From assembly GCA_009693575.1 (NCBI GenBank), contig SHWZ01000017.1, forward strand, positions 1-46,791: 46,791 bases of DNA, read 5' to 3'. Source of the DNA: Flavobacteriaceae bacterium. Its GTDB lineage: Bacteria > Bacteroidota > Bacteroidia > UKL13-3. Shown one piece after another: positions 278 through 13,908 of this stretch (positions are counted from its first letter, which is position 1; each line of letters starts with the position of its first letter). The position numbers and the translations under genes were made by a program. Below the pieces are notes generated by a model. The model saw nothing but the letters and a program-made list of their open reading frames with translations. It did no database searches and was not told the DNA's origin.

Positions 278-1768
278 TTATTCTTTTATCACTTTAAATG
301 TTTGTTTCAAATTATCACCAACACTAAATAAATAAATGCCTGTTGATAAATCACTTAATTCAACTGTTGTATTTTCAGAATATATTTTTCCGTTAATAAC
401 TGCTTTTCCTGTAAGGTCATAAACCGAATAATTGGAGCCGTGTAGCTGAGCGGTCACTTTAATATTTATTTGATTTTGGGCTGGGTTAGGAAATAAACTG
501 ACTAACAATTCGCTTTCGGGCTCAATTATGCTGGTAAAAATATCACCGCTTGGCCAATTTATAATTAAAGGAGGCAATGAGTATAATATATCATTCATTG
601 CTGCGGTTAAACCGTTTATATTGGCATCGGTATTTACTAATATGGCACCATTAACTTGATCGTCTCTTCTTGCAATCTCTGACCGACAAGTGCCAGGAAT
701 ATAACCATAATGGTAATAATTATTATCGGTTGTGTTTAGGTGCCAGCCCAAAGCATAAGTAGGGTTTACTGCAGAGCCCGTTGTCATGGTAGTAATTGTT
801 GATGGTAAAAGTATATCGGGTTTAGAAGAAAAGCCATCTACGGCTACTAGTAGTTTACATAAATCCTTTGCCGATGAAACCCATGATGCACAACCACTCA
901 TGCTTTCTATATTATGAACGCCATAAGCATAAGGAAGCATTGTTACGCCATCGTAAATGGAAACATTTTGTGTGTTGTAATTATTATAATAATTAACCTC
1001 CATTGGTAACTGATTTGATAATAATGTAGCCCCTGTACGAATCTCGGTAATACCTATTGGAATTAAAATGGTGTCTCGAATATATTGTTCATATCCTTGA
1101 CCAGTTACTTTTTCAATAACTTGACCTATAATGGAATATCCAATATTAGAATAGCTATAAACTGTTCCAGGTGTATAGTTAAGATTGAAGTGATTGAGCA
1201 TATATTCAATTATTGATTGGGCAGTACCTGGAGGAGAAACCCCCATAGCACCTGCCATATCATAAACACCAATTATCTTAGCTGCAAAATGCGGAAAGAA
1301 TGGATCTCCAGAAATAAATCTATCCCAACCCCCTGTATGTTCAAGAAGGTTTCTAAGTGTAATAGTGTAAATGCGTGAATCAATAGCCTTTTGATATTTT
1401 ACATCGTTAAGTATTCCTTTTGCACCAAAAATTGTATCACTTAAATGTAACTTGCCTTGTTCTATTAAGTGCATTACTGCAATAGAGGTGATTGGCTTAG
1501 ATACGCTTGCTACCCTAAATCTATGGTTGGGCTGAACAAACGTGTTAGTACTTGTGTTTGCATAACCAAATCCACGATTATAAACTAAACGCCCTTTGTA
1601 GGTAAGTGCTAATTGAGCTCCTTTAACATTGTAAGTAGTTAATAAATTAGACATAGCCGTATCAAAAATTGCAAGTTCGGGAACATAAATACCTGTTTGT
1701 GCTTTTGCACTTTGCTTAAATGTGAATAATAACAAAATTGCAATGGCGGTGATGAGTGAATTTTTCAT
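278..1768 (-). CDS. Secreted serine hydrolase (beta-lactamase/PBP class C fold) with T9SS type A sorting domain
   Basis: A predicted penicillin-binding-protein-like or esterase-type serine hydrolase of 496 residues, exported by Sec and then T9SS. The signal peptide is residues 1-24. The class C triad is visible: S-V-S-K (Ser88, Lys91), Y-S-N (206-208) and a later H-Y-G motif before the final strand. The last 75 residues form a type A sorting domain: LFPNPAQNQ, a DLTGK strand, STGIYLFSV and a short basic end. I chose the ATG at 1768; reading could begin nine codons earlier, but the duplicated copy at 111 has a stop directly before the equivalent ATG. The natural substrate cannot be told from sequence. 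No partner genes are adjacent, so it is probably monocistronic. Confidence 0.85.
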   Translation of the reverse strand: MKNSLITAIAILLLFTFKQSAKAQTGIYVPELAIFDTAMSNLLTTYNVKGAQLALTYKGRLVYNRGFGYANTSTNTFVQPNHRFRVASVSKPITSIAVMHLIEQGKLHLSDTIFGAKGILNDVKYQKAIDSRIYTITLRNLLEHTGGWDRFISGDPFFPHFAAKIIGVYDMAGAMGVSPPGTAQSIIEYMLNHFNLNYTPGTVYSYSNIGYSIIGQVIEKVTGQGYEQYIRDTILIPIGITEIRTGATLLSNQLPMEVNYYNNYNTQNVSIYDGVTMLPYAYGVHNIESMSGCASWVSSAKDLCKLLVAVDGFSSKPDILLPSTITTMTTGSAVNPTYALGWHLNTTDNNYYHYGYIPGTCRSEIARRDDQVNGAILVNTDANINGLTAAMNDILYSLPPLIINWPSGDIFTSIIEPESELLVSLFPNPAQNQINIKVTAQLHGSNYSVYDLTGKAVINGKIYSENTTVELSDLSTGIYLFSVGDNLKQTFKVIKE

Positions 1769-1810
1769 TTGGGTGTTACTGTTTTTAAATGACAAATAGG
1801 GGCTAAAATT
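1734..1810. repeat. Duplicated upstream/signal-peptide module, copy 2
   Basis: Partner of 77-153 (75 of 77 identical). It includes the first 11-12 codons of the serine hydrolase and its upstream region. Just beyond it, at about 1808-1824, are 16 extra bases absent from copy 1. They resemble the hydrolase gene's own last codons (AAATTATTCTTTTAT occurs at 275-289 and 1806-1820), after which homology to copy 1 resumes. Confidence 0.9.
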
Positions 1811-1865
1811 ATTCTTTTATACTTTTTAGTTTTAATATTTATACGAGGTCCGTTTTTAGTTTTAC

Positions 1866-3350
1866 CTACACACCCCAGCTCACCCCGTCTTTCCCGTCCT
1901 TTATCACAAAGCCAAGGGCTTCTAGTTTGTTGCGTATTTCGTCGGAGGTGGCGAAGTCTTTTCGGTCTTTGGCTTTTTGCCGCATGTCAAGCAACAAGTC
2001 TATGGTGCTGGAGAGTTTGTCGTCCTGTCCTTGGTTGTCCCGATAGCTATCGGGGCCACCAACCAATCCGCCCAACCCCAATACATCAAACACAAAACCG
2101 TGCATGGTTCTTTTCAGCAGGGCTAAGTCATCTGCTGTGATGGTTTCCTTGCCGTCGTTCACCGAGTTGATGATGCGTGAGCCCTCAAACAACTGTGCCA
2201 CCAGGATGGGGGCGTTGAAATCTTCGTTCATAGCATCATAGCAGGCCTTCTGCAGAGCTTCTATGTCGGAAGTGGTACTTGTGGTCGGCTTTAGGTTTTC
2301 CAGCGTCTTCATGGCAGCAATCAGGCGTGCGTGTCCTTTTTCGGAAGCCTGCAATGCTTCGTTGGAGAAGTCGAGGGTGCTGCGATAGTGGGTCTGCATC
2401 ATAAAAAAGCGTACCGCCATGGGGCTGTAGCCTTTCTCCAACAGGGGGTGGTCGCCAGTAAACAGTTCGCCAGGAAGAAAACCATTGCCCGCATTCTTGC
2501 TCATACGCACATTGTTCACGGTAAGCATGTTTGTGTGCATCCAATAATTCACCGGCGATTTGTGGTTGCAGGCCTGCGATTGTGCTATCTCATTGGTGTG
2601 ATGGGTGGCTTGTAGGTCCATGCCACCCCCGTGTATATCAAAAGTTTCTCCCAGATACTTACTGCTCATGGCTGAGCACTCGATATGCCAGCCAGGAAAA
2701 CCCCATCCCCAAGGAGAGTTCCATTTCATCAGAGTTTCGCTCTTAGCGGCTATCCACAAAGCAAAATCTAGTCTTCCTCGTTTTTCGTCTTGACCTTGCA
2801 GCTCCCGCGTTCCTTCCATCAGGTCTTCCAGCTTTCTGTTGGTCAATTGCCCGTAAGCAAATTCTATATTATACTTTTCTACATCAAAATATACCGTTCC
2901 GTTGGTTTCGTATGCATAACCATTGGCAATTATTTCTTTAATCATTTCTATCTGCTCACCAATATGTCCTGAGGCGGTGGGCTCTATGCTTGGCGGCAGA
3001 GTATTAAAAGCCCGCATCACCTCGTGGAATCCCAAAGTATATTTCTGGACAATTTCCATCGGCTCCAATTGTTCCAGCTTGGCTTTTTTAGCAAACTTAT
3101 CTTCGCCCTCATCCCTGTCTCCTTCCAGGTGTCCGGCATCGGTAATGTTTCGCACATATCTAACCTTATATCCCAAATACAATAGATAGCGATATATTAA
3201 ATCAAAAGAAATAAAAGTGCGGCAATTGCCCAGATGCACATCGCTATAAACCGTAGGGCCACACACGTACAGCCCGGCTCGGCCTTCGTGTATAGGTTTA
3301 AAATTTTCTATTTTTCTACTAAGGGTATTGTATATTTTTAAATTATTCAC
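1866..3350 (-). CDS. cysS: Cysteinyl-tRNA synthetase
   Basis: Charges tRNA-Cys with cysteine in the cytoplasm. The class I signatures are present: the HIGH-type motif HLGN in [12 protein letters not shown] near residue 40, and the KMSKS-type motif RMSKN in [11 protein letters not shown] near residue 282. Likely zinc ligands are the Cys of CGPT, the Cys of HIECSAMS, and the His/Glu of ATHHTNE. At 494 residues it is normal for the family. It follows pheS by 11 nt on the same strand, so the two are probably co-transcribed. Oddity: residues about 433-441, in the C-terminal region, include an in-frame stretch PDSYRDN encoded by the palindrome at 2039-2054. Confidence 0.97.
2038..2055. repeat. 16-bp perfect palindrome inside cysS
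   Basis: CCCGATAGCTATCGGG at 2039-2054 is a perfect palindrome, and the identical sequence occurs at 36081-36096 in a repeat-rich intergenic region. In cysS it is read in frame as P-D-S-Y-R and lies in a Gly/Asp/Gln-rich loop before the last helix bundle, where an insertion would be tolerated. It is probably a dispersed palindromic repeat that has landed in a coding region. Confidence 0.8.
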
Positions 3351-3361
3351 TTCTGTATTTG

Positions 3362-4366
3362 TTAGATAAATTGCTTCAAAAAACGGATATCATTGTCGAA
3401 GAACACCCGTATGTCGTTGATGCTATATTTAAGCATAGTGATGCGTTCGATACCCATCCCAAAAGCATAACCACTATAGGTTTCTGGGTCGTGGCCACTA
3501 TTGCTAAGCACTTGCGGATCCACCATGCCGCAACCGAGGATTTCTACCCAGCCACTTTGTTTGCAGACGGGGCAGCCTTTGCCGCCACAAATAAAACAGG
3601 ATATATCCATTTCGGCACTAGGCTCGGTAAATGGGAAATAACTCGGCCTGAAACGGTTTTTACACTCAGCACCAAACATCTGCCTCACAAACTCAAACAA
3701 TACCTGTTTCAAGTCGGCAAAAGAAACTTTTTTATCAATATATAATCCTTCCGCCTGATGGAAAAAACAATTGGCACGGGCAGAGATTGCCTCATTGCGG
3801 TACACTCGACCCGGCATAATGTATCTCATAGGTGGCTTTTGGGTTTCCATTAGCCGCACCTGCACCGAACTGGTATGGGTTCGCAAGGCTATCTCATCAT
3901 CTACAAAAAAAGTATCCTGCATATCTCTAGCTGGGTGTTCAGGCGGAAAATTAAGTGCTGAGAAGTTGTGCCAATCATCTTCTATTTCTGGACCATCAGC
4001 CAATGAAAAGCCTAACGATTGAAATATAGTATTGATTTGTACGGCTACAAGGTTAAGTGGATGGCGGCTACCCAACTGAATTGGTTGACCTGGTAAATAA
4101 GAGTCGGGTAGTTGTTGGGTTTGTGCAGTTTCTTTAAATTTTTCTTTATAATTGTTAAATTTTTCTTCAGCTTCCTCTTTTAATTTATTTATCAGTGCAC
4201 CCACACTCTTGCGTTCTTTAGGAACTACATTCTTTATACCCGACAATAGGTCCTGTAATTCACTTTTCTTACTAAGCCATTGTATGCGAAATTGTTCCAA
4301 AGTTTCCTTTGAGTCAATTTTGACTTGATTTATTTTTTTTTGAAGTTGTTCTATGCGTTCTTTCAT
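3362..4366 (-). CDS. pheS: Phenylalanyl-tRNA synthetase alpha subunit
   Basis: Catalytic alpha subunit of the alpha2-beta2 class II enzyme that charges tRNA-Phe. The N-terminal 85 residues form the expected coiled-coil tRNA-binding arm. The class II core follows: HPLNLVAVQIN, GPEIEDDWHNFSALNFPPEHPARD, LRTHTSSVQVR (motif 2 region), and a C-terminal GFGMGIER-type motif 3 seen as AFGMGIERITML. A CxxC-x-C-xxC loop (CFICGGKGCPVC) precedes motif 3, as in other bacterial PheS. The start chosen is the ATG at 4366; a GTG six codons upstream is possible but less likely. pheT is not in the window. Length, 334 residues, is normal. Transcription would start in the AT-rich gap to the right. Confidence 0.96.
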   Translation of the reverse strand: MKERIEQLQKKINQVKIDSKETLEQFRIQWLSKKSELQDLLSGIKNVVPKERKSVGALINKLKEEAEEKFNNYKEKFKETAQTQQLPDSYLPGQPIQLGSRHPLNLVAVQINTIFQSLGFSLADGPEIEDDWHNFSALNFPPEHPARDMQDTFFVDDEIALRTHTSSVQVRLMETQKPPMRYIMPGRVYRNEAISARANCFFHQAEGLYIDKKVSFADLKQVLFEFVRQMFGAECKNRFRPSYFPFTEPSAEMDISCFICGGKGCPVCKQSGWVEILGCGMVDPQVLSNSGHDPETYSGYAFGMGIERITMLKYSINDIRVFFDNDIRFLKQFI

Positions 4367-4384
4367 ATTGGTACAAATTTTCAC

Positions 4385-4780
4385 TCCAAAAACTTACAAA
4401 CCCACTAAATAGTTATTATTATTTTCTTTTAAAAGGTTTAATAGTAGTAGTAATAGGTGCTGTGTATAAGTTAGTTAATTAATTTAGTCACATGCTTTAT
4501 TTTCCAATATCAACAAAATTATACATGTGCTTCACATGTATTTCCACATATTATTTACTTACTTTTCAATATAGTTAGCTTTAAATATTCACAGTGTTGA
4601 TAAGAGTATATGTTCTTTCTTTCTTCTGTAATGTTACTAGTTTTAATGTTGGTAAGAGTTTCTTTTTTATGTATAATGTGATGGTAAGTGGACTGTAACT
4701 CTAAATTGGTATGGATAACTCTAATAAGATAAAAATCATTGTTTAAAAAGCACGTAAGAATGTCAATAAATATAGTTTTT
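4385..4780. other. Candidate chromosomal replication origin (oriC)
   Basis: A non-coding 396-bp gap, about 26% GC by hand count (4381-4740), far below its flanks. At 4439-4456 there are six consecutive triplets, TAA TAG TAG TAG TAA TAG, each fitting the DnaA-trio consensus [T/A]A[G/A]. They are followed by a 4-nt spacer GTGC and a perfect DnaA box TGTGTATAA (4461-4469, complement TTATACACA), in the order and orientation described for bacterial basal unwinding systems. The tract left of the trios (4409-4440) is almost pure A/T, as expected of an unwinding element. Three 8-of-9 DnaA-box matches follow at 4540-4548, 4595-4603 and 4710-4718. dnaA is not in the window. Assigned from sequence logic alone. 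Confidence 0.5.
4521..4541. other. Nine-base-pair perfect hairpin in the candidate origin
   Basis: ATACATGTG, loop CTT, CACATGTAT: a 9-bp perfect inverted repeat with a 3-nt loop. It abuts the DnaA-box-like ATTTCCACA at 4540-4548. It could be a protein-binding site or, less likely, a weak terminator; no T-run follows it on either strand. Confidence 0.55.
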
Positions 4781-6382
4781 CTACCAAGTTATACTGTCTA
4801 AATCAACAGTGATGTCCTCGACCATTGTTAGGCTTACAGTAATATGATTTGGTAAAAGTATAGCGGTTTCAGGTTCTATTTTAGACTTAAATAAACCAAT
4901 ATCCCATTCTTTGTTTAGGTTTTTATCATTTACTGCCCGCAAAGTGTACTTTCCTGGTTTTAGCATCTTAAATGATGTGGTAGTATTTCCAAATACTACT
5001 ACTCCTTGTACCACCCTACCATCAGCATTTAGAAGGTGTAACAATATCCGTCTTCCATTATCGTTCTTAAAGCGGATAGATATTTCTGAGTAGTCATCAA
5101 CAGCCTCTGTCGTAAAATTTATTTTTATACTATCATTTCCTTGCGAAAAAACGTCCTTAAACTTATTTGGCTTGATGAGAACATTGTAATTTTTTCTAGC
5201 CTTTACTGGCAAAGTAAATCGGTATCGGGACTGTTCATTGTTAACAAATTTTCCATTTTGGGAATATGGTATTTTAATCGAATCTTCAAACACCTCTATA
5301 TCCCTATCGTCAAAGCTCATCACAGGGTTACTAAAGTCTATGCGGAAAGTGTCATTTAGTGCGAAGTGTTGGTTTTTATCAACTAATACGTTACTTCTAA
5401 ATGGTCGTTTGATGTAGGTATTATTCATGTGGGTGGTAACAATATCGCGGTACCAGTCATCATTTAAGTATAAATCAAAGTGTCCATCTTGCAAGTCGGC
5501 ACTAGGAGAAAACCACACAATAGTATCATCATCTTTGCCATCAAACAAAAGTAAGTATGCCTCGTCTGTCCAAAGATTATTTTCCACCAGGCGTTTTGTG
5601 CAACCCTTTGGACTAACCACAAATTCGAATACGCCATAATGTCGACTTTTGAAATCTTTTAAATGGGTTTGTGTAAAGCTAGGATCGGGATAAATATATA
5701 TTTTGTGGCGGCTGGAGCTATCGGTGTTGGCTAGGTCTGCCGCGAAACCAAAAAGTTCGTCTGCGTCCATCTTTCTATTACCGTTCTTGTCTTGAAAGGC
5801 AATGAGGCGGTACTCCCCCCTTTTTATATTCTTAAAGGAAAAGCCGCCACTTACATCAGTCTTTGTATAATAATCGGGTAGTTGCGTAGTAACAACAGAA
5901 TCCTCTTGGCTTACATATAAAGCCACAGTTGTATTTGCTTCTAGTTTTAGAGTTGATAGTAAAATAACGCAGCCGCCGATTTGAGCCGTGTCTATTTTGT
6001 CGCCTGTAGCAAAAGAAATATGTAGGTTGCTCACCTTGTTTCCCTCGGTGATGTCGCTCACTACGCCCGGCATTTCAATGGAATAAGTGGTGTTTCGTTT
6101 CAGGGAATCCTTCAAGAAAACCACAAGGCTTTTGCCGCTAACCTCAACTATAGGAGGTATAATCATTGGAGGATTCGTAATAATTCCTTGGGTATTTTCT
6201 ATCTTGATATATTCATTGAAGGTAACCTCTAAGCGTTTGCTGATAAAATTAATAGCATTATTTTCTGGAAATTGTTTCTTTATTTTCGGAGCATCCGTGT
6301 CTCGCTTACCACCGTCGGGAGTGACAATATTAGCACAAGAGAAGTTTAGGAAAACAACTAAACAAGCAAGATTACGCATCAT
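4781..6382 (-). CDS. Ig-like domain lipoprotein
   Basis: A surface or periplasmic lipoprotein of 533 residues with no known enzymatic role. The signal peptide ends at a lipobox-like FLNFSC (Cys16). Residues about 28-130 match the bacterial Ig-like (Big_5/SbsA-type) domain common in Bacteroidota: VTPDGGKRDTDAPKI, FNEYIKIEN, LKRNTTYSIEMP, ISFATGD. Residues about 170-220 form a small beta-sandwich (SGGFSFKNIKRGEYRLIAF, then the calcium-binding-like DKNGNRKMDADE), and a similar motif ends the protein (VNDKNLNKEWD). It is the last gene of the operon, starting by ATGA overlap with the methyltransferase gene upstream. The role is probably structural or envelope maintenance; function unknown. Confidence 0.75.
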   Translation of the reverse strand: MMRNLACLVVFLNFSCANIVTPDGGKRDTDAPKIKKQFPENNAINFISKRLEVTFNEYIKIENTQGIITNPPMIIPPIVEVSGKSLVVFLKDSLKRNTTYSIEMPGVVSDITEGNKVSNLHISFATGDKIDTAQIGGCVILLSTLKLEANTTVALYVSQEDSVVTTQLPDYYTKTDVSGGFSFKNIKRGEYRLIAFQDKNGNRKMDADELFGFAADLANTDSSSRHKIYIYPDPSFTQTHLKDFKSRHYGVFEFVVSPKGCTKRLVENNLWTDEAYLLLFDGKDDDTIVWFSPSADLQDGHFDLYLNDDWYRDIVTTHMNNTYIKRPFRSNVLVDKNQHFALNDTFRIDFSNPVMSFDDRDIEVFEDSIKIPYSQNGKFVNNEQSRYRFTLPVKARKNYNVLIKPNKFKDVFSQGNDSIKINFTTEAVDDYSEISIRFKNDNGRRILLHLLNADGRVVQGVVVFGNTTTSFKMLKPGKYTLRAVNDKNLNKEWDIGLFKSKIEPETAILLPNHITVSLTMVEDITVDLDSITW

Positions 6383-7275
6383 AATTTCTTTTTGAATATG
6401 TAGAGTATACTTGAGTGATTTTGGTTGCCTGCTGATTTGAAGTTAGAAATAAAACCACTCCACACACCCTTAATTATTCCCAGAATTTTATTCCCAGAAT
6501 GCCACTCGCTTCGTATACTCACATAGTAGGCGTCGTACTTCATTGGTTGCATTTCAGCGAGTTCAAACCCGTGCCGATTCATTAGTTTTTGAATAGTGTC
6601 GGGGTTATAATGATAGATATGCCGCGGGACATCGTAGGCGTCCCAGTTGCTACCGTATTTTTTCGCATCGTACGAGTCGCTGTTTGGTAGTGCAAAGAGA
6701 ATATACCCTAAGTTTGTCAGGGACTTCTTTAAGCTATCAATTGTTTTGTCTAATTCATACACATGTTCGAGGACGTGCCAAAGGGTTATTATTTCGTACT
6801 TACCCGCTTCGCCTTTGTGTATTTCTGCGTTTTCAAACACATCAATAGCATACCTCTGTTTTACCACGTTTCTGGCATCTTCTGATATGTCCATGCCAGT
6901 GGTGTTCCAGCCGTTTTGTTTAGAATAGTTAAGAAATGTTCCTAAACCACATCCATAATCAAGTATATTTCTTTGCGATTTGCGTGGCACCAAGCGATTG
7001 ATTATACCAAGCTTCCAGCGAAGATTTATCTTGCGAATAGTTCTATAAAGGAATAAAACGAGCGACCATTTTTCATCAGCATGTGACACATAATTTGTGC
7101 TTTGATAATAGGTGCCACATTCAGATTCTGTAGGCCGGGGGTTCGTGAATAAGAAGGAGCATACTGTGCATTTACAAATAATAAAAATTTCTCCGCTAGC
7201 TACATTGTCTTTGCAGCGTATGTATTCCTCAAACGATTCGCCCTGGCAAACAGGGCATTGTTTTAGTGTCTCCAT
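6379..7275 (-). CDS. Class I SAM-dependent methyltransferase with N-terminal zinc-ribbon-like motif
   Basis: Predicted cytosolic methyltransferase, 298 residues. The N-terminus has four cysteines in two pairs (CPVC near residue 8, CKCTVC near residue 35), likely binding zinc. The SAM-binding Rossmann motif I is ILDYGCGLGTF (about 105-115), followed by GMDIS at the end of strand 2 and the LWHVLEHV motif typical of Methyltransf_23/UbiG-like proteins. The substrate is unknown; similar proteins often act on sugars, lipids or glycan precursors. It lies 1 nt downstream of mnmG and overlaps the next gene by 4 nt, so it is translated as part of the operon. The C-terminus (about 255-298) is basic and partly hydrophobic. 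Confidence 0.8.
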   Translation of the reverse strand: METLKQCPVCQGESFEEYIRCKDNVASGEIFIICKCTVCSFLFTNPRPTESECGTYYQSTNYVSHADEKWSLVLFLYRTIRKINLRWKLGIINRLVPRKSQRNILDYGCGLGTFLNYSKQNGWNTTGMDISEDARNVVKQRYAIDVFENAEIHKGEAGKYEIITLWHVLEHVYELDKTIDSLKKSLTNLGYILFALPNSDSYDAKKYGSNWDAYDVPRHIYHYNPDTIQKLMNRHGFELAEMQPMKYDAYYVSIRSEWHSGNKILGIIKGVWSGFISNFKSAGNQNHSSILYIFKKKL

Positions 7276-7276
7276 A

Positions 7277-9139
7277 TTATCGCCCCAAGTGAACCATTAG
7301 AACAGACACATCTGCGGGACTAACTCCGCTTATTCTTGATGCCTGCCCCAGGTTCTCGGGTTTTATTTTAATCAGTTTTTCTCGTGCTTCTGATGATATA
7401 TTTTTTACATCCTCGTATGAAAAGCCTGGTGCAATGATAACATATTCCAGTCGATTCATCTTTTTGGCAATTTCATTTTCCTTTTGCAAATAGCCACCGT
7501 AGCGAAGTTGAATCTCTGCTTCAAAAATGGAGCACTGGTCAAATTTGGAAAGAAACTGAGCGATATTTGGCACAGAGGATTGTATTCCTGAAATGTCAAT
7601 ATGCGGCCTTCCCAAAATTCCATCAAGTTTTACTGACTGATTTATTGTTGCCGAACCGCACGACTCCAAATACCCATTTACCTCATCTGGGGAAATACTT
7701 GTTTTTTTGAACCAGCTAATTATTTTAGCAGATTCTTCAATTTTTCTATTCGTGCTTTCTAAGCGTTTTGCTGACGCTAAGCCCAATTCGAAAGATTTTT
7801 TGGTAAGTCGAATGTCGGCATTGTCTTGTCTCAAAAGTATTCGGTATTCAGCCCTTGAAGTGAACATACGATACGGCTCGTCTGTGCCTTTATGAACCAA
7901 ATCGTCAATTAATACACCAATGTATGCCTCATTTCTATTGAGCACAAACGGCCCACCGTTTTTTAAAATACGAGCAGCGTTTATTCCGGCTATTAATCCC
8001 TGGCACGCGGCCTCTTCATAGCCAGTTGTGCCATTTATCTGTCCGGCAAAGTATAGGCCGTGAATCAATTTTGTTTCTAATGTTGGTCGCAACTGGGTTG
8101 GTGGGAAGTAATCATACTCCACCGCATAGCCCGGCCGGAACATTTTTACATCCTCAAAACCCGGGATGTGTTGGAGTGCCGCCTGTTGTATGTGGGCTGG
8201 AAGTGAAGATGAAAACCCATTCACATATATTTCAGAGGTGTGCCAACCCTCAGGCTCTACAAATATCTGGTGCCTCTCCCTTTCGGCAAATCGGTTTATT
8301 TTATCCTCGATGGATGGGCAGTATCGAGGCCCCAAACCCTTGATTCTGCCAGTATACATAGGCGACTCATCAAATCCGGTTTTAAGAATGTCGTGTACGG
8401 CAGAATTGGTATAGGTGACCCAGCAATTTCTTTGGTTAGTAAGAGGCGTTTTTTCTAGAAACGAGAAACTCCCGGGCATATCGTCTCCGGCCTGACACTC
8501 CATTTTTGCATAGTCTAATGAGCGACCATCAACCCTTGGAGGGGTTCCAGTTTTCATTCTTCCAGCCTCAAACCCTGCAGAAATAAGCTGCTCTGTAATG
8601 CCTGTCGAAGGGTGTTCGCCCATCCTTCCACCACTAGACCTATTCAAACCCACATGGATAGTTCCGTTCATAAAGGTGCCGCTAGTCAGCACGACCGATT
8701 TAGAACTAATACTATGCCCACGACTTGTTTTCACACCAATCGTTCGGCCGCCTTTTATTAAAAGCTCTGAAACCGAATCTTGCCAAAAATTTATGCCATG
8801 GATAGACTCTAGGGACTCTCTCCAATATTTGGAAAACAGTTCACGATCATTTTGTGTTCGGGGGCTCCACATCGCGGGCCCTTTTGAACGATTCAAGAAC
8901 CTAAATTGAATAGCAGACTTGTCGGATACTATTCCTGAATACCCCCCAAGTGCGTCTATCTCACGAACTAGTTGCCCCTTGGCCACACCGCCCATCGCGG
9001 GGTTGCAGCTCATCTGAGCAATACGCCCCATATCCATTGTAATCATTAGAACTGAGCACCCCAAATTGGCGGCACTCGCAGCAGCCTCACACCCAGCGTG
9101 ACCACCACCAATAACTATAATGTCATACTCTTTAAACAT
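7277..9139 (-). CDS. mnmG: tRNA uridine-5-carboxymethylaminomethyl(34) synthesis enzyme MnmG
   Basis: With its partner MnmE (not in the window), this FAD protein installs the carboxymethylaminomethyl group on wobble uridine 34 of several tRNAs. The FAD-binding Rossmann motif [10 protein letters not shown] is at residues 11-20. The GidA signatures follow: [37 protein letters not shown] and [16 protein letters not shown]. At 620 residues it has the normal length and an intact C-terminal helical domain for MnmE and tRNA contact. It is 3 nt from ybeY and 1 nt from the methyltransferase gene. The gene (gidA) lies near the replication origin in many bacteria, which is relevant to the origin candidate 2.5 kb away. 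Confidence 0.97.
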
Positions 9140-9142
9140 GTT

Positions 9143-9616
9143 TCAGAGCAACCCCAGAACTTTATTTTTGATGTGTTTCATGTGAAACAGGGGAAACAGG
9201 TATTTATTTTCCAAGCCCCGCATTAGTAGTTTTTCATTTTCACTCTCATCGTTTTTGCCCAAAAGATGGAGGGTGCCATGAATAATCACTCTGCAAAGTT
9301 CAGCAGAAAATGAACCAGAAAAAGCTAGGCTGTTTTCGCGAACCCTATCAATACTAATGTACATTTCACCATCTATTTCCTTCTTGGAGGTGGGGGTGGA
9401 AAGGTCGAAAGTGATTATGTCGGTAAGGTAATTGTGCGAAAGTCGCTCTTTGTTTATTTTGAGCAGTTGTTTGTCTGAAGTGAATACTACCGATAGAGTC
9501 AGAGAGCCCAACTTAAAATCCTTAAAAATGCGATTTAGTGCCAAAATTGTCAAAGACTTTTGTCGAAAAACAAAGTCAATATCATATTTGAAATACTGAA
9601 GTGAAACCACCGTCAA
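9143..9616 (-). CDS. ybeY: Endoribonuclease YbeY (rRNA maturation factor)
   Basis: Metal-dependent RNase of the UPF0054 family, needed for 16S rRNA 3'-end maturation and ribosome quality control. The metal-binding motif appears as VIIHGTLHLLG at residues about 109-119, with two of the usual three histidines. The third (H in the common GYDH) is missing: the sequence continues GKNDESENE. I recall a similar substitution in other Bacteroidota YbeY, so it may be a lineage trait rather than a defect. No ATG is available; the start is TTG at 9616, two bases after the upstream gene's stop, or GTG at 9610. Length, 157 residues, is normal. Its last codons overlap the parS-like palindrome. Confidence 0.9.
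   Translation of the reverse strand: MTVVSLQYFKYDIDFVFRQKSLTILALNRIFKDFKLGSLTLSVVFTSDKQLLKINKERLSHNYLTDIITFDLSTPTSKKEIDGEMYISIDRVRENSLAFSGSFSAELCRVIIHGTLHLLGKNDESENEKLLMRGLENKYLFPLFHMKHIKNKVLGLL
9174..9189. other. parS-like palindrome
   Basis: TGTTTCATGTGAAACA differs by one base from the widely conserved ParB-binding consensus TGTTTCACGTGAAACA. It overlaps the last codons of ybeY (read as F-H-M-K-H on the minus strand), 35 bp from the start of mnmG. I found no second copy in the window. In many bacteria, parS sites cluster around the origin and gidA/mnmG. Confidence 0.5.
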
Positions 9617-9618
9617 CC

Positions 9619-11421
9619 CTATCTGAGGAATATGAATTTTCCTTCAAAAGTTTGCTTTCGTTTGTTTACGCCAGTAATACTTGCCGTGAAAATATATAAC
9701 CCCGGCTCCATCCAATCACCCCTACTATCTTTACCATCCCAACCATCATGCAAGTCTGTTATTGTTTTTACCCGCTGTCCCCAGCGGTCATAGATGGTAA
9801 TGGTTGAAAGATCATAATTTACATATGAAGCCTTTGGTACCCATTTGCGATTGATACCAAAAGGATTGAAGGCATTCGGAAAGAAAAAGGTGAATTCTTT
9901 AATTTCATATGAGTAGTTCGATTTGGAGGTTTCAATAGATGCGGTTAGTGGATTTCCTGGATTTTCGAAAGCTTCCACATAATAACACACTCCCGTATTC
10001 CCAGCCTCAGAAGGTGGGCTAATATCTATCCAGGACGTTTCCGTTGCCTTTGCTGATCCCGCGATTGCCCAGTTATATTTTCCATCTAGAAAAACACCAC
10101 GATAAATATAATAAAACCCAACCCCCTGGTTCCAGAAATTATATTGGTTCCAAACCAACATATTGGCATCGGTGGTTAGCTGAATAACAGAGTCTTTAAT
10201 GGTATTAGAAATATTAGACATGCTGCCAGAAAAGTTATCGCAATTGTCATAAACTAAAATTTTATAATTGTATATTTTATCGCCTACTTTCACTTTTGGA
10301 TCTTTATCGTCGTAGCTATATTCTGTTTTGGTGGCGTCGAAGGGAATGGAGGCTATCTCGTCCATTTGAAACGTATCAAGACCTCGCAAAATGCGGAATG
10401 TGCTTATTTCACCTTTCATGTCGCTGATCCAGCGTAAAGTAACAAACGAGTTGTTTGCTACAGAAACGGCACTTAAATAGTTGACCTTCGGCAACTTAAC
10501 AAGAGGAATCATAATATCATGTTTGTTTGACGATGATGAAATAGCACCGTTGTCAGCACTCCATCCACGCACAAAACATTTGATAACATCCCCGGGCTTT
10601 ATTCCTGAAAGGGTATAACTTAAGGTATTCCCATCAACAGAGGCTATTATTTGAAAACCGCTACCGTTGTTGTCAACAACAATATCATATCCCTTTACAC
10701 TGTTCCAGCCAGCATACCCGGTCCACGATAGAACCGCTTCTCCAGTGCACTCATTCAGCAAATATGAAAGCTTAATAGTAGAATGAGCCAGCAAACTAGC
10801 CGCCGCTAACCCGCAACTGTCATAAGAGGAGATGTTATAGCTATAAACGGAATCTTGTGGGACAGTTCCCGCAATCAAAAAAAACGAATTTTGGGTTGAG
10901 CCCCACAGCTGATTTTGGCTGCCAGTAACTCTAAAAACAAAATACCCAGACACATCAGGGGTTTTGTTGGAGGTCCAACCCAGAATCACACTTCCAGTAT
11001 TGATGTCAACACTTACACTGTCAAGCGAAGAAACCGATGGGGGGGTCAGGTCTATAGGGATAGTATCAGAAGAAACAATGGAGTCGCCATTACAGTCGTT
11101 GTGGGTAATGATGAAATACTCCCAAGACGTTACTCCTATATTTGGGTCTGTAAAAACGCTTTGAGTCTGCACACTCACGCTATCCTTAAGCTGGAAAGGG
11201 GAGCTACTGTTGGGTCTTCCATAAATATGATACGACCTAAAACTTCCGCAAGAGTTAGCCGAAGGAATCCAGTAAAGGATAGCGTCTTTGCCGTTATTTG
11301 TTAGGCAAGCCCTACGAAGATTCGGACCCGTTTCTGCAGAAACATGCTGGCATCCTGCAAGCAAAAGAGTCAGGAATAATACCTGTATAGTTTTGTTAAG
11401 CCACAACTTCAGTGAAATCAT
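9619..11421 (-). CDS. Large secreted protein with T9SS type B (gliding-motility-associated) C-terminal domain
   Basis: A 600-residue exported protein with several fibronectin-III-like beta-sandwich segments (repeated W-aromatic, VSGYFVFR, VKGYDIVV, TFRILRG and FYYIYRG strands, each spaced about 95-110 residues). It ends with a type B sorting domain: FFFPNAFNPFGINRKWVP, ITIYDRWGQRV, GWDGKDSRGDW and GLYIFTASI. T9SS type B cargo includes adhesins and gliding-associated proteins. The signal peptide ends either at an apparent lipobox (LLLAGC, Cys24) or at the signal peptidase I-like site SAE. Its start overlaps the upstream M16 gene by 26 nt and it ends 2 nt before ybeY, so it sits inside the operon. 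Ligand or surface role unknown. Confidence 0.82.
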   Translation of the reverse strand: MISLKLWLNKTIQVLFLTLLLAGCQHVSAETGPNLRRACLTNNGKDAILYWIPSANSCGSFRSYHIYGRPNSSSPFQLKDSVSVQTQSVFTDPNIGVTSWEYFIITHNDCNGDSIVSSDTIPIDLTPPSVSSLDSVSVDINTGSVILGWTSNKTPDVSGYFVFRVTGSQNQLWGSTQNSFFLIAGTVPQDSVYSYNISSYDSCGLAAASLLAHSTIKLSYLLNECTGEAVLSWTGYAGWNSVKGYDIVVDNNGSGFQIIASVDGNTLSYTLSGIKPGDVIKCFVRGWSADNGAISSSSNKHDIMIPLVKLPKVNYLSAVSVANNSFVTLRWISDMKGEISTFRILRGLDTFQMDEIASIPFDATKTEYSYDDKDPKVKVGDKIYNYKILVYDNCDNFSGSMSNISNTIKDSVIQLTTDANMLVWNQYNFWNQGVGFYYIYRGVFLDGKYNWAIAGSAKATETSWIDISPPSEAGNTGVCYYVEAFENPGNPLTASIETSKSNYSYEIKEFTFFFPNAFNPFGINRKWVPKASYVNYDLSTITIYDRWGQRVKTITDLHDGWDGKDSRGDWMEPGLYIFTASITGVNKRKQTFEGKFIFLR

Positions 11422-12676
11422 CGATGTCTAAATATTTTATGGCAAGCTGTTGTAGGTCATTAGCTTGCAGTTTGTTTATTGAGTTGGAGTATTTAACGAA
11501 ATAGTCTAGGTCAAGATTGTTGTCAATGAGTGTTTTAAGTCGATCTGCCTTGGCAAAAACCCCATCGAAGGAGCGTTGGAATGAACCAATCATGTAGTTT
11601 TTAACCAGAGCCAATTCGGCAGAATCGACCATATTTTGCTGCAAAGTAACAACTTCGGCTCGAATATCTTGCAATACTAATTCCCATTTGTCAACGGCCA
11701 CCTCTGTTTGTATACTAAAAACGGCACCATTTTTTTGTACAAGAATAGAAGAACCGATGCCATAAGTATACCCTTTTTCTTCGCGTATTTTCTTCATTAA
11801 TCTAGAGCCAAAGTACCCGCCCAGTAACGTGTTGAGCACCTGAAGTCCAAAATAATCAGGGTGGTTTCTGCCTATTGTTTGGCTCCCCATCAATAGTGCC
11901 GCCTGAACGCTTTCTTTTTTTTGCTCAACAAACAATCCTTTTTCTGTGCTGCTTTTCCAAGACAAAGAATTAGCAGGGGGGGTTGCGTGGGCTGTTGCCC
12001 ATTTTTTTGAGCCAAGGCTTTGGTTTAGTATAGAAATATCAGCCAAGCCAAGAGACCCAGAAACTACAAGGTAGCAATTTTCTGGAGAATATTTTTGGAA
12101 ATAGAACTTAGAAATGGCTGATTGTGTTAATCTGTCAAAGTCTTCGGCTTGCATGTGCCGCCCGTAAGGGTGCTCGAGACCCCAAATTTTTTGGGCAAAC
12201 AAACGTTTGGCAAGGTACGAATTCTTTTGACTGTTCACAGCCAGCTTTTGTTTGTGGCGACTAATGTATAGTTCAAGCTCCTGCTGAGGAAAGGCGGCAT
12301 TGTTGAACACTTCAACAAGTAGGTTCAAGGTGTTTGGCAGAAACTTCTGCAGCGAATAGAGACTAATCTGAGCATCGTCAGCTGAGCACCCCCGCTCAAG
12401 GTAAGCTCCGTAAAAGTCAAAAGCTTCGTGAATTTCTTGTGATGACTTATCCTTGGTGCCTTCGCTGAAAAGCGAGTTTGCAGCCGAGGCAACGCCCCTT
12501 TGTACAGAGCTTCCGGCACCGGCTCCAAAAACAAGGTCGAGTTTCACAGCTCCATTTGCGTTTGGCGAATGCATGATGTAAGCCTTCATGCCGTTGTCGA
12601 GGGCAACTGTCTCAAAAAAAAGCTTTGAAATAGATGACCGACCATCAATGAGTGGTTGAGTTACTCTATCAATCAT
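11396..12676 (-). CDS. M16 peptidase-like protein, catalytically inactive partner subunit
   Basis: 426-residue member of the M16B (pitrilysin/processing peptidase) family without the HxxEH zinc motif: the corresponding segment reads DLVFGAGAGSS...ANSLFSEGT. Other features of the fold are kept, including the RREEKGYTYGIGSS-like segment (KIREEKGYTYGIGS, about 296-309), typical of the C-terminal half of M16 proteins. It follows the active M16 gene with an ATGA overlap (start ATG at 12676), so the two probably form a heterodimer in which this subunit supplies part of the chamber. No signal peptide is seen, unlike periplasmic M16 enzymes. I start at 12676 rather than 15 codons upstream because of that overlap. 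Confidence 0.88.
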   Translation of the reverse strand: MIDRVTQPLIDGRSSISKLFFETVALDNGMKAYIMHSPNANGAVKLDLVFGAGAGSSVQRGVASAANSLFSEGTKDKSSQEIHEAFDFYGAYLERGCSADDAQISLYSLQKFLPNTLNLLVEVFNNAAFPQQELELYISRHKQKLAVNSQKNSYLAKRLFAQKIWGLEHPYGRHMQAEDFDRLTQSAISKFYFQKYSPENCYLVVSGSLGLADISILNQSLGSKKWATAHATPPANSLSWKSSTEKGLFVEQKKESVQAALLMGSQTIGRNHPDYFGLQVLNTLLGGYFGSRLMKKIREEKGYTYGIGSSILVQKNGAVFSIQTEVAVDKWELVLQDIRAEVVTLQQNMVDSAELALVKNYMIGSFQRSFDGVFAKADRLKTLIDNNLDLDYFVKYSNSINKLQANDLQQLAIKYLDIDDFTEVVA

Positions 12677-13908
12677 TGTGGCAAATAGGTTAGAGTTGAA
12701 CAGTTGTTGTCCACCAAACACTGGCTGGCAGCGTCCATAATATTTTCAAGTGTTACGGCTCGGTATTTTTCGATATCGGTATTGGCCCTCTCCACATCGC
12801 CCGCAAACTCGGCGAAGGCAAGGTTCATAGCCTTGTTCAGTATACCTGTATTGCTAAACACATACATACTCTCAGCCTTGTTTTTTACCTTCTGAAGTTC
12901 CCGTTCGGTGATTCCTTTTTTAAGAAAAGAAATCAAAAAAGAATTAACAGCGGCCTCTGCTTGCTCCACAGGTACACCATCAGTCACATAGCCCTCAATA
13001 ACCAGCAAACCAGCATCATCATCGCCCGTTAGGTAAGCGTTAATGTCGCTAAAAATCGGCTCCGACTTTACCAAGGCGTTGAATAGCCTCGAAGATTTGC
13101 CACCGGAAAGTATATCAGTAAGTAGGTCGAAGGCGGGGTATGCATCCTCCGCGTGTTTGCAGATATGGTATGCTTTGTAAATAGCGGGAAATGGCACGGG
13201 GCCACTTGTGGTTTCGTTGCGGGCTTCAGTTTGGGAAGGTTCTGGCGGAATCGGAGTGTTTTCAATTTCTCTATTGGGAATATTGCCAAACCATTTTTCG
13301 GCCAAGCCCTTGGTTTTTTCTAGTGAAATATTGCCAGCCACCACCATGATGGCATTGTCTGGCCCATAGTGTTTGTAGAAAAAATCTTTCACATCAGCGA
13401 GGGTAGCATTTTCGATATGCGAAAGCTCCTTGCCGATGGTAGGCCAGCGGTAAGGATGCTGCTTGTAGGCCAGTGGTCGCAGCTTGAGCCAGGCATCGCC
13501 GTAAGGCTGATTCAGGTAGCGTTGCTTAAACTCCTCACACACCACCTTTCGCTGAACCCCTAGACTTTTTTCGCTAAAGTCAAGCTGCAACATGCGGTCG
13601 CTTTCCAGCCAAAAACCTGTTTCAATGTTGCCCGCGGGCAGGGTGAGGTAGTAGTTGGTAATGTCGTTGCTGGTGAAGGCATTGTTTTCGCCACCAGCCA
13701 TTTGCAGGGGAGTGTCGTATTCGGGAATATTGGCAGATCCGCCGAACATGAGGTGCTCAAATAAATGAGCAAAGCCTGTCTTGGCTGGGCTTTCGTTGCG
13801 GGCTCCTACTTTGTACAGGATATTGAGAACCGCAAGTTCGGTGTCGCCATCGAAGTGATGGATGATGGTGAGACCATTGGCTAAAGAAAATTTTTCGTAG
13901 GAAATCAA
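12673..13908 (-). CDS. M16 family zinc metallopeptidase, active subunit
   Basis: A 411-residue M16B peptidase with the inverted zinc motif HLFEH (His48, Glu51, His52) in GFAHLFEHLMFGGS. The third ligand is probably the Glu of VVCEEFKQR about 75 residues on. It degrades or processes peptides as a chamber with the inactive subunit encoded next. The only plausible start is TTG at 13908: an in-frame TAA is at 13918-13920 and the next ATG falls after the zinc motif. No signal sequence is visible. It is first in a seven-gene operon reading down to 4781, so the control region should lie between 13909 and 14198, a space shared with the divergent receptor gene. Confidence 0.9.
   Translation of the reverse strand: MISYEKFSLANGLTIIHHFDGDTELAVLNILYKVGARNESPAKTGFAHLFEHLMFGGSANIPEYDTPLQMAGGENNAFTSNDITNYYLTLPAGNIETGFWLESDRMLQLDFSEKSLGVQRKVVCEEFKQRYLNQPYGDAWLKLRPLAYKQHPYRWPTIGKELSHIENATLADVKDFFYKHYGPDNAIMVVAGNISLEKTKGLAEKWFGNIPNREIENTPIPPEPSQTEARNETTSGPVPFPAIYKAYHICKHAEDAYPAFDLLTDILSGGKSSRLFNALVKSEPIFSDINAYLTGDDDAGLLVIEGYVTDGVPVEQAEAAVNSFLISFLKKGITERELQKVKNKAESMYVFSNTGILNKAMNLAFAEFAGDVERANTDIEKYRAVTLENIMDAASQCLVDNNCSTLTYLPQ

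Follow-up and report, generated by a model that had tools for sequence, protein, structure and literature searches.

Chromosome origins (oriC) next to gidA/mnmG, with parS nearby, are known from other bacteria. At the oriC of B. subtilis, the basal unwinding system (BUS) is made up of DnaA-boxes 6/7, a GC-rich spacer, the DnaA-trios, and an AT-rich unwinding region (PMC8287927, PMC10721633). Asn187 of B. subtilis DnaA contacts the trio adenine, and a central T in the trios of that organism reduces opening. The published search for trios accepted only triplets with A in the middle, and its authors suspected the existence of others that lack it; published origins may also carry a single DnaA box. 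In our literature searches, no Bacteroidota origin mapped by experiment came up, nor did any DnaA-trio paper mentioning both Bacteroidetes and oriC.

Here we consider a 46,791-nucleotide stretch of DNA from an uncultured Flavobacteriaceae bacterium (contig SHWZ01000017.1 of assembly GCA_009693575.1; hereafter, the window), in which the AT-rich gap between pheS and a lipoprotein gene is very probably the chromosome origin, working via a BUS. This assessment follows from the recurrence of the gap, a DNA-opening motif, and chromosome-sorting sites at the same place across the family. The features of the locus are as follows:

3362..4384, minus strand: pheS, flanking gene (PF01409, PF02912)
4385..4780, no strand: proposed oriC, an AT-rich intergenic gap of 396 bp and 25% GC
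4410..4438, no strand: AT tract, proposed DNA unwinding element (read from the sequence, with its role assigned from the BUS order)
4439..4456, plus strand: six DnaA-trios, TAA TAG TAG TAG TAA TAG
4450..4485, plus strand: highest-scoring site in the window for the family motif, which was learned de novo without this genome
4457..4460, plus strand: GTGC spacer from trios to box, with the same letters in the relative G010
4461..4469, minus strand: perfect DnaA box, TGTGTATAA on the plus strand and thus TTATACACA on the minus strand (consensus TTATNCACA)
4484..4492, plus strand: DnaA box with one mismatch, TTAGTCACA
4521..4541, no strand: 9-bp palindrome, ATACATGTG-CTT-CACATGTAT
4585..4593, plus strand: DnaA box with one mismatch, ATATTCACA, including ATTCACA, a core enriched in the family gaps
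4595..4603, minus strand: DnaA box with one mismatch, TTATCAACA
4668..4676, minus strand: DnaA box with one mismatch, TTATACATA
4710..4718, minus strand: DnaA box with one mismatch, TTATCCATA
4761..4769, minus strand: DnaA box with one mismatch, TTATTGACA
4781..6382, minus strand: lipoprotein gene with a Big_5 domain, flanking, conserved in position
6379..7275, minus strand: methyltransferase gene, conserved neighbour (PF13489)
7277..9139, minus strand: mnmG, conserved neighbour (PF01134)
9143..9616, minus strand: ybeY, which carries the parS-like site (PF02130)
9174..9189, no strand: parS-like site TGTTTCATGTGAAACA, in the 3' portion of ybeY

Re-reading of the sequence confirmed exactly the order given in the original prediction (AT tract, six trios, GTGC, box), as well as the presence of the 9-bp palindrome, which could be either a hairpin of the origin or a terminator for the operon upstream. 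The GC content had been put at about 26% and is 25% on recomputation, and the claim of three further 8-of-9 boxes was an undercount, as the gap holds six one-mismatch boxes in addition to the one perfect TTATNCACA. In its order and polarity the module resembles the B. subtilis BUS, with six trios that are mostly 3'-GAT-5' and an AT tract (4410-4438) beyond them as the putative AT-rich unwinding region. Where the BUS definition asks for a box with at most two mismatches to TTATCCACA, TTATACACA has one (and none to TTATNCACA), and where it asks for at least three consecutive 3'-NAN-5' triplets on the right strand and no more than 16 bp from the box, the gap has six trios and a 4-bp spacer. The DnaA of the window genome is, in addition, homologous to the BUS structure chain 8btg. 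Unlike B. subtilis, the gap has one strong box, and its tandem partner is very degenerate: relatives keep G.ATAA just past the first box, a possible co-oriented second tandem box, and the window genome reads TAGTTAATT at that place. A further difference is that dnaA, as had been pointed out, is not adjacent to the gap, being located instead on contig C44; two others, a Ser in place of Asn187 in DnaA and T-centred triplets in relatives from three genera, are taken up below.

It had also been noted that each part could arise by chance and that the combination is what stands out. A run of trios by itself has an expectation of 0.44 per window, which makes it weak evidence and the one point in favour of attributing the trio-box arrangement to chance within AT-rich intergenic DNA. 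However, among 3,000 dinucleotide shuffles of the gap, none contained five trios, a spacer of 0-7, and a perfect box, and none reached the seven DnaA boxes (at most one mismatch) found in the gap, the mean being 1.03. Across the 2.435-Mb genome, the pattern TAR x5-N4-TGTGNATAA has a single exact match, at the gap (control, 0), and the next best matches, at two other places, have three mismatches each. Together with the conservation of position and motif in other genera, which already contradicts it, these results leave chance an extremely improbable explanation.

The placement of the gap is shared across the family. We located PheS in 52 of 58 family genomes, and in all 21 genomes for which we read 20-kb loci the order is the same: pheS, gap, lipoprotein, methyltransferase, mnmG, (ybeY), a gliding-like protein, and two M16 peptidases (some of these loci stop short of the last M16 peptidase, and in two of them tblastn did not pick up ybeY). 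The pheS-lipoprotein gap itself is 379-479 bp long with 15-30% GC in 21/21. The pheS-lipoprotein order is a feature of the family that most of the other Bacteroidota loci we checked lack; linkage of pheS to mnmG, whole or partial, appeared in 5 of 80 other Bacteroidota pheS loci, a count in which at least two records come from the window genome's own family and some loci are too short for linkage to be judged. As in origins of the gidA/mnmG type, only a few kb separate the gap from mnmG, and parS is close by, in agreement with the predicted distances of 2.5 kb (to the closer end of mnmG, which spans 7277-9139) and 4.4 kb (to the parS-like site, 9174-9189); in contrast to those origins, it sits between pheS and a lipoprotein gene. 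The site at 9174..9189, which lies within the proposed origin region, is the sole parS match with at most one mismatch in the window genome, and relatives have parS matches (0-2 mismatches) in or beside ybeY/mnmG and the adjoining gene. Genes for both ParB and DnaA are present on other contigs of the window genome.

We searched the gaps of other genera for motifs by expectation maximisation, with the window genome excluded. The search settled on a single site in each gap, lying roughly 70-190 bp away from pheS and having the consensus.T...T.....TGTGAATT....G.ATAA.TTTTTT. Scanned across the window, this motif has its top match (14.8 bits; second, 11.0) at the trio-box junction, 4450-4485, which ranks 1 of 93,512 positions when the model is refitted without the window genome, and its score is unequalled in 166 kb of other DNA from the same genome. 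The window genome is the one for which this test is fully blind. With leave-one-genus-out models, for which the site positions in relatives came from runs that included their own genus, the gap site outranks the rest of its own locus in 19 of 22 genomes; the exceptions are G003, G009, and G006 (g4, g10, and one g7 site). The box in relatives is mostly TGT[GT]AAT.., i.e. ATT[AC]ACA, a core whose frequency in the gaps is about 10 times that in the remaining intergenic DNA of these genomes. Thus, position and sequence module are both conserved among relatives: gap, synteny, position, and box are kept family-wide. Lack of conservation of the trios and box had been named as grounds for abandoning the prediction, and this check did not supply them. 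For the trios the outcome is divided, with a triplet run beside the box in most genera but not in all.

GC skew gives a partial signal for an origin at this locus. In six relatives, the flank to the left of the locus has negative skew in 6/6, and that to the right is higher in 6/6 and positive in 5/6, with means of about -0.057 versus +0.043. The step is clear in G028, G017, and G038, and clearest in G028, where pheS lies in the middle of a 752-kb contig with a local minimum at pheS; a second negative stretch further on places the lowest value of the sampled contig at its end. The proposed skew test thus lends support but is mixed: skew rises at the locus in all six relatives, but its minimum does not fall exactly there, lying at 20.3 kb rather than 4.4 kb in the window itself, away from the locus in G034, and near 40 kb of the record in G021. 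In G021, the one relative with a complete genome, this puts the minimum about 195 kb from the gap, or 6% of the chromosome. Between that minimum and the pheS gap, the skew of G021 zigzags with alternating signs. As a guess, recent inversions close to the origin may account for this offset.

Clusters of DnaA boxes are known from DnaA-regulated promoters as well as from origins. One might therefore read the gap as a promoter/terminator region serving pheS and the operon upstream, regulated by or titrating DnaA, with the origin elsewhere. The genes on either side of the gap do share a direction (indeed, genes from 278 to 13,908 all do, so that the gap is not a strand-switch), the gap contains promoter-like sites and a terminator-like hairpin (4541-4521, minus strand), and DnaA boxes also occur upstream of dnaA and, in G021, of a ribonucleotide reductase-like gene. 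The promoter-like sites, however, number 5 versus 4.6 in shuffles and are thus not in excess, a search of Rfam found no leader, and a regulatory role leaves three things jointly unexplained: the skew step, the linkage to parS, and the order of trios, spacer, and box. We consider this alternative unlikely.

Even less probable, in our assessment, is that the true origin lies on contig C40 at 56,418-56,918, upstream of an H1-like gene. That gap (L010:6419-6918, ~500 bp) has 22-29% GC in 300-bp windows and a pair of perfect, inverted TTATCCACA boxes separated by 252 bp, and near 56 kb the local skew turns positive and gene direction changes. Nevertheless, it is without a clear trio module (the family motif scores 7.7 there, and the best match on C40, 11.4 bits, falls elsewhere), our parS search found no match on the contig, and its NFACT-like neighbour gene sits at 1.61 Mb in the complete relative, near the skew terminus. 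Among the NFACT loci of seven relatives, three, all from one genus, retain a perfect box ahead of the H1-like gene, in keeping with a DnaA-regulated promoter. Despite the C40 boxes and the skew offset in G021, we prefer the pheS-lipoprotein gap as origin because it is conserved across the family. The original proposal of a candidate chromosome origin is accordingly supported by family synteny, the blind motif match, the parS linkage, and the partial skew signal.

If initiation does occur at the gap, we infer from the layout of the module that DnaA would occupy the box at 4461-4469 along with the weaker ones elsewhere in the gap. Its filament would then be guided leftwards along the trio-carrying strand, from 4456 to 4439, upon which the AT tract at about 4410-4438 would open for helicase loading. 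ParB bound to parS-like sites 4-5 kb away would mark the origin for segregation. An origin position common to the family would provide a concrete DNA fragment for testing.

The triplets beside the box vary among genera in a manner that bears on how trios are recognized. At the genus level, Fisher's test for trio-like triplets beside the box gives p = 3e-9 for T[AT][AG] and 0.03 for the canonical form. A-centred triplets (TAG/TAA) occur in g1 (the genus of the window genome), g5, and most of g3, and T-centred triplets (TTG/TTA) in most of g2 as well as g10 and g11 (e.g. G010, G021, G009, and G047), as illustrated by TTG TTA TTG TTA TTG-GTGC-TGTGAATTT in G010. Genus g9 has a mixture of the two, and triplets are weak or absent in g4, g7, g13, g14, and, less so, g12. 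The T-centred form in three genera would escape the published search. The DnaA of the window genome (L011:5137-6603, contig C44) carries an AGC codon, for Ser, where B. subtilis has Asn187, as fixed by alignment to the B. subtilis chain, whereas all relatives tested have Asn. We had considered a tie between T-centred trios and residue 187, and rejected it given that the tested relatives are all Asn. Perhaps, and we put this forward tentatively, the trios of the family have drifted to the T-centred form under a different recognition rule, along with a factor that binds a recurrent TGCGACAT in the origin. With both A-centred and T-centred triplets, and both Asn and Ser at the contact residue, occurring naturally, the trio recognition rule is open to comparative test.

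Some additional sequence observations were made along the way. In G021, three perfect DnaA boxes lie in the gap between a PcrB-like gene and the ribonucleotide reductase-like gene (L160, C1:148,938-149,478). The sequence TGCGACAT/ATGTCGCA, absent from the window's own gap, occurs 40 times in 23 of 38 pheS-lipoprotein gaps of relatives, about 28 times background and sometimes as an inverted pair (examples are L168, L169, L172, and L179), which makes it a candidate origin-associated element. In five genomes, TGTCGCA also lies upstream of the dnaA open frame, at most 300 bp away.
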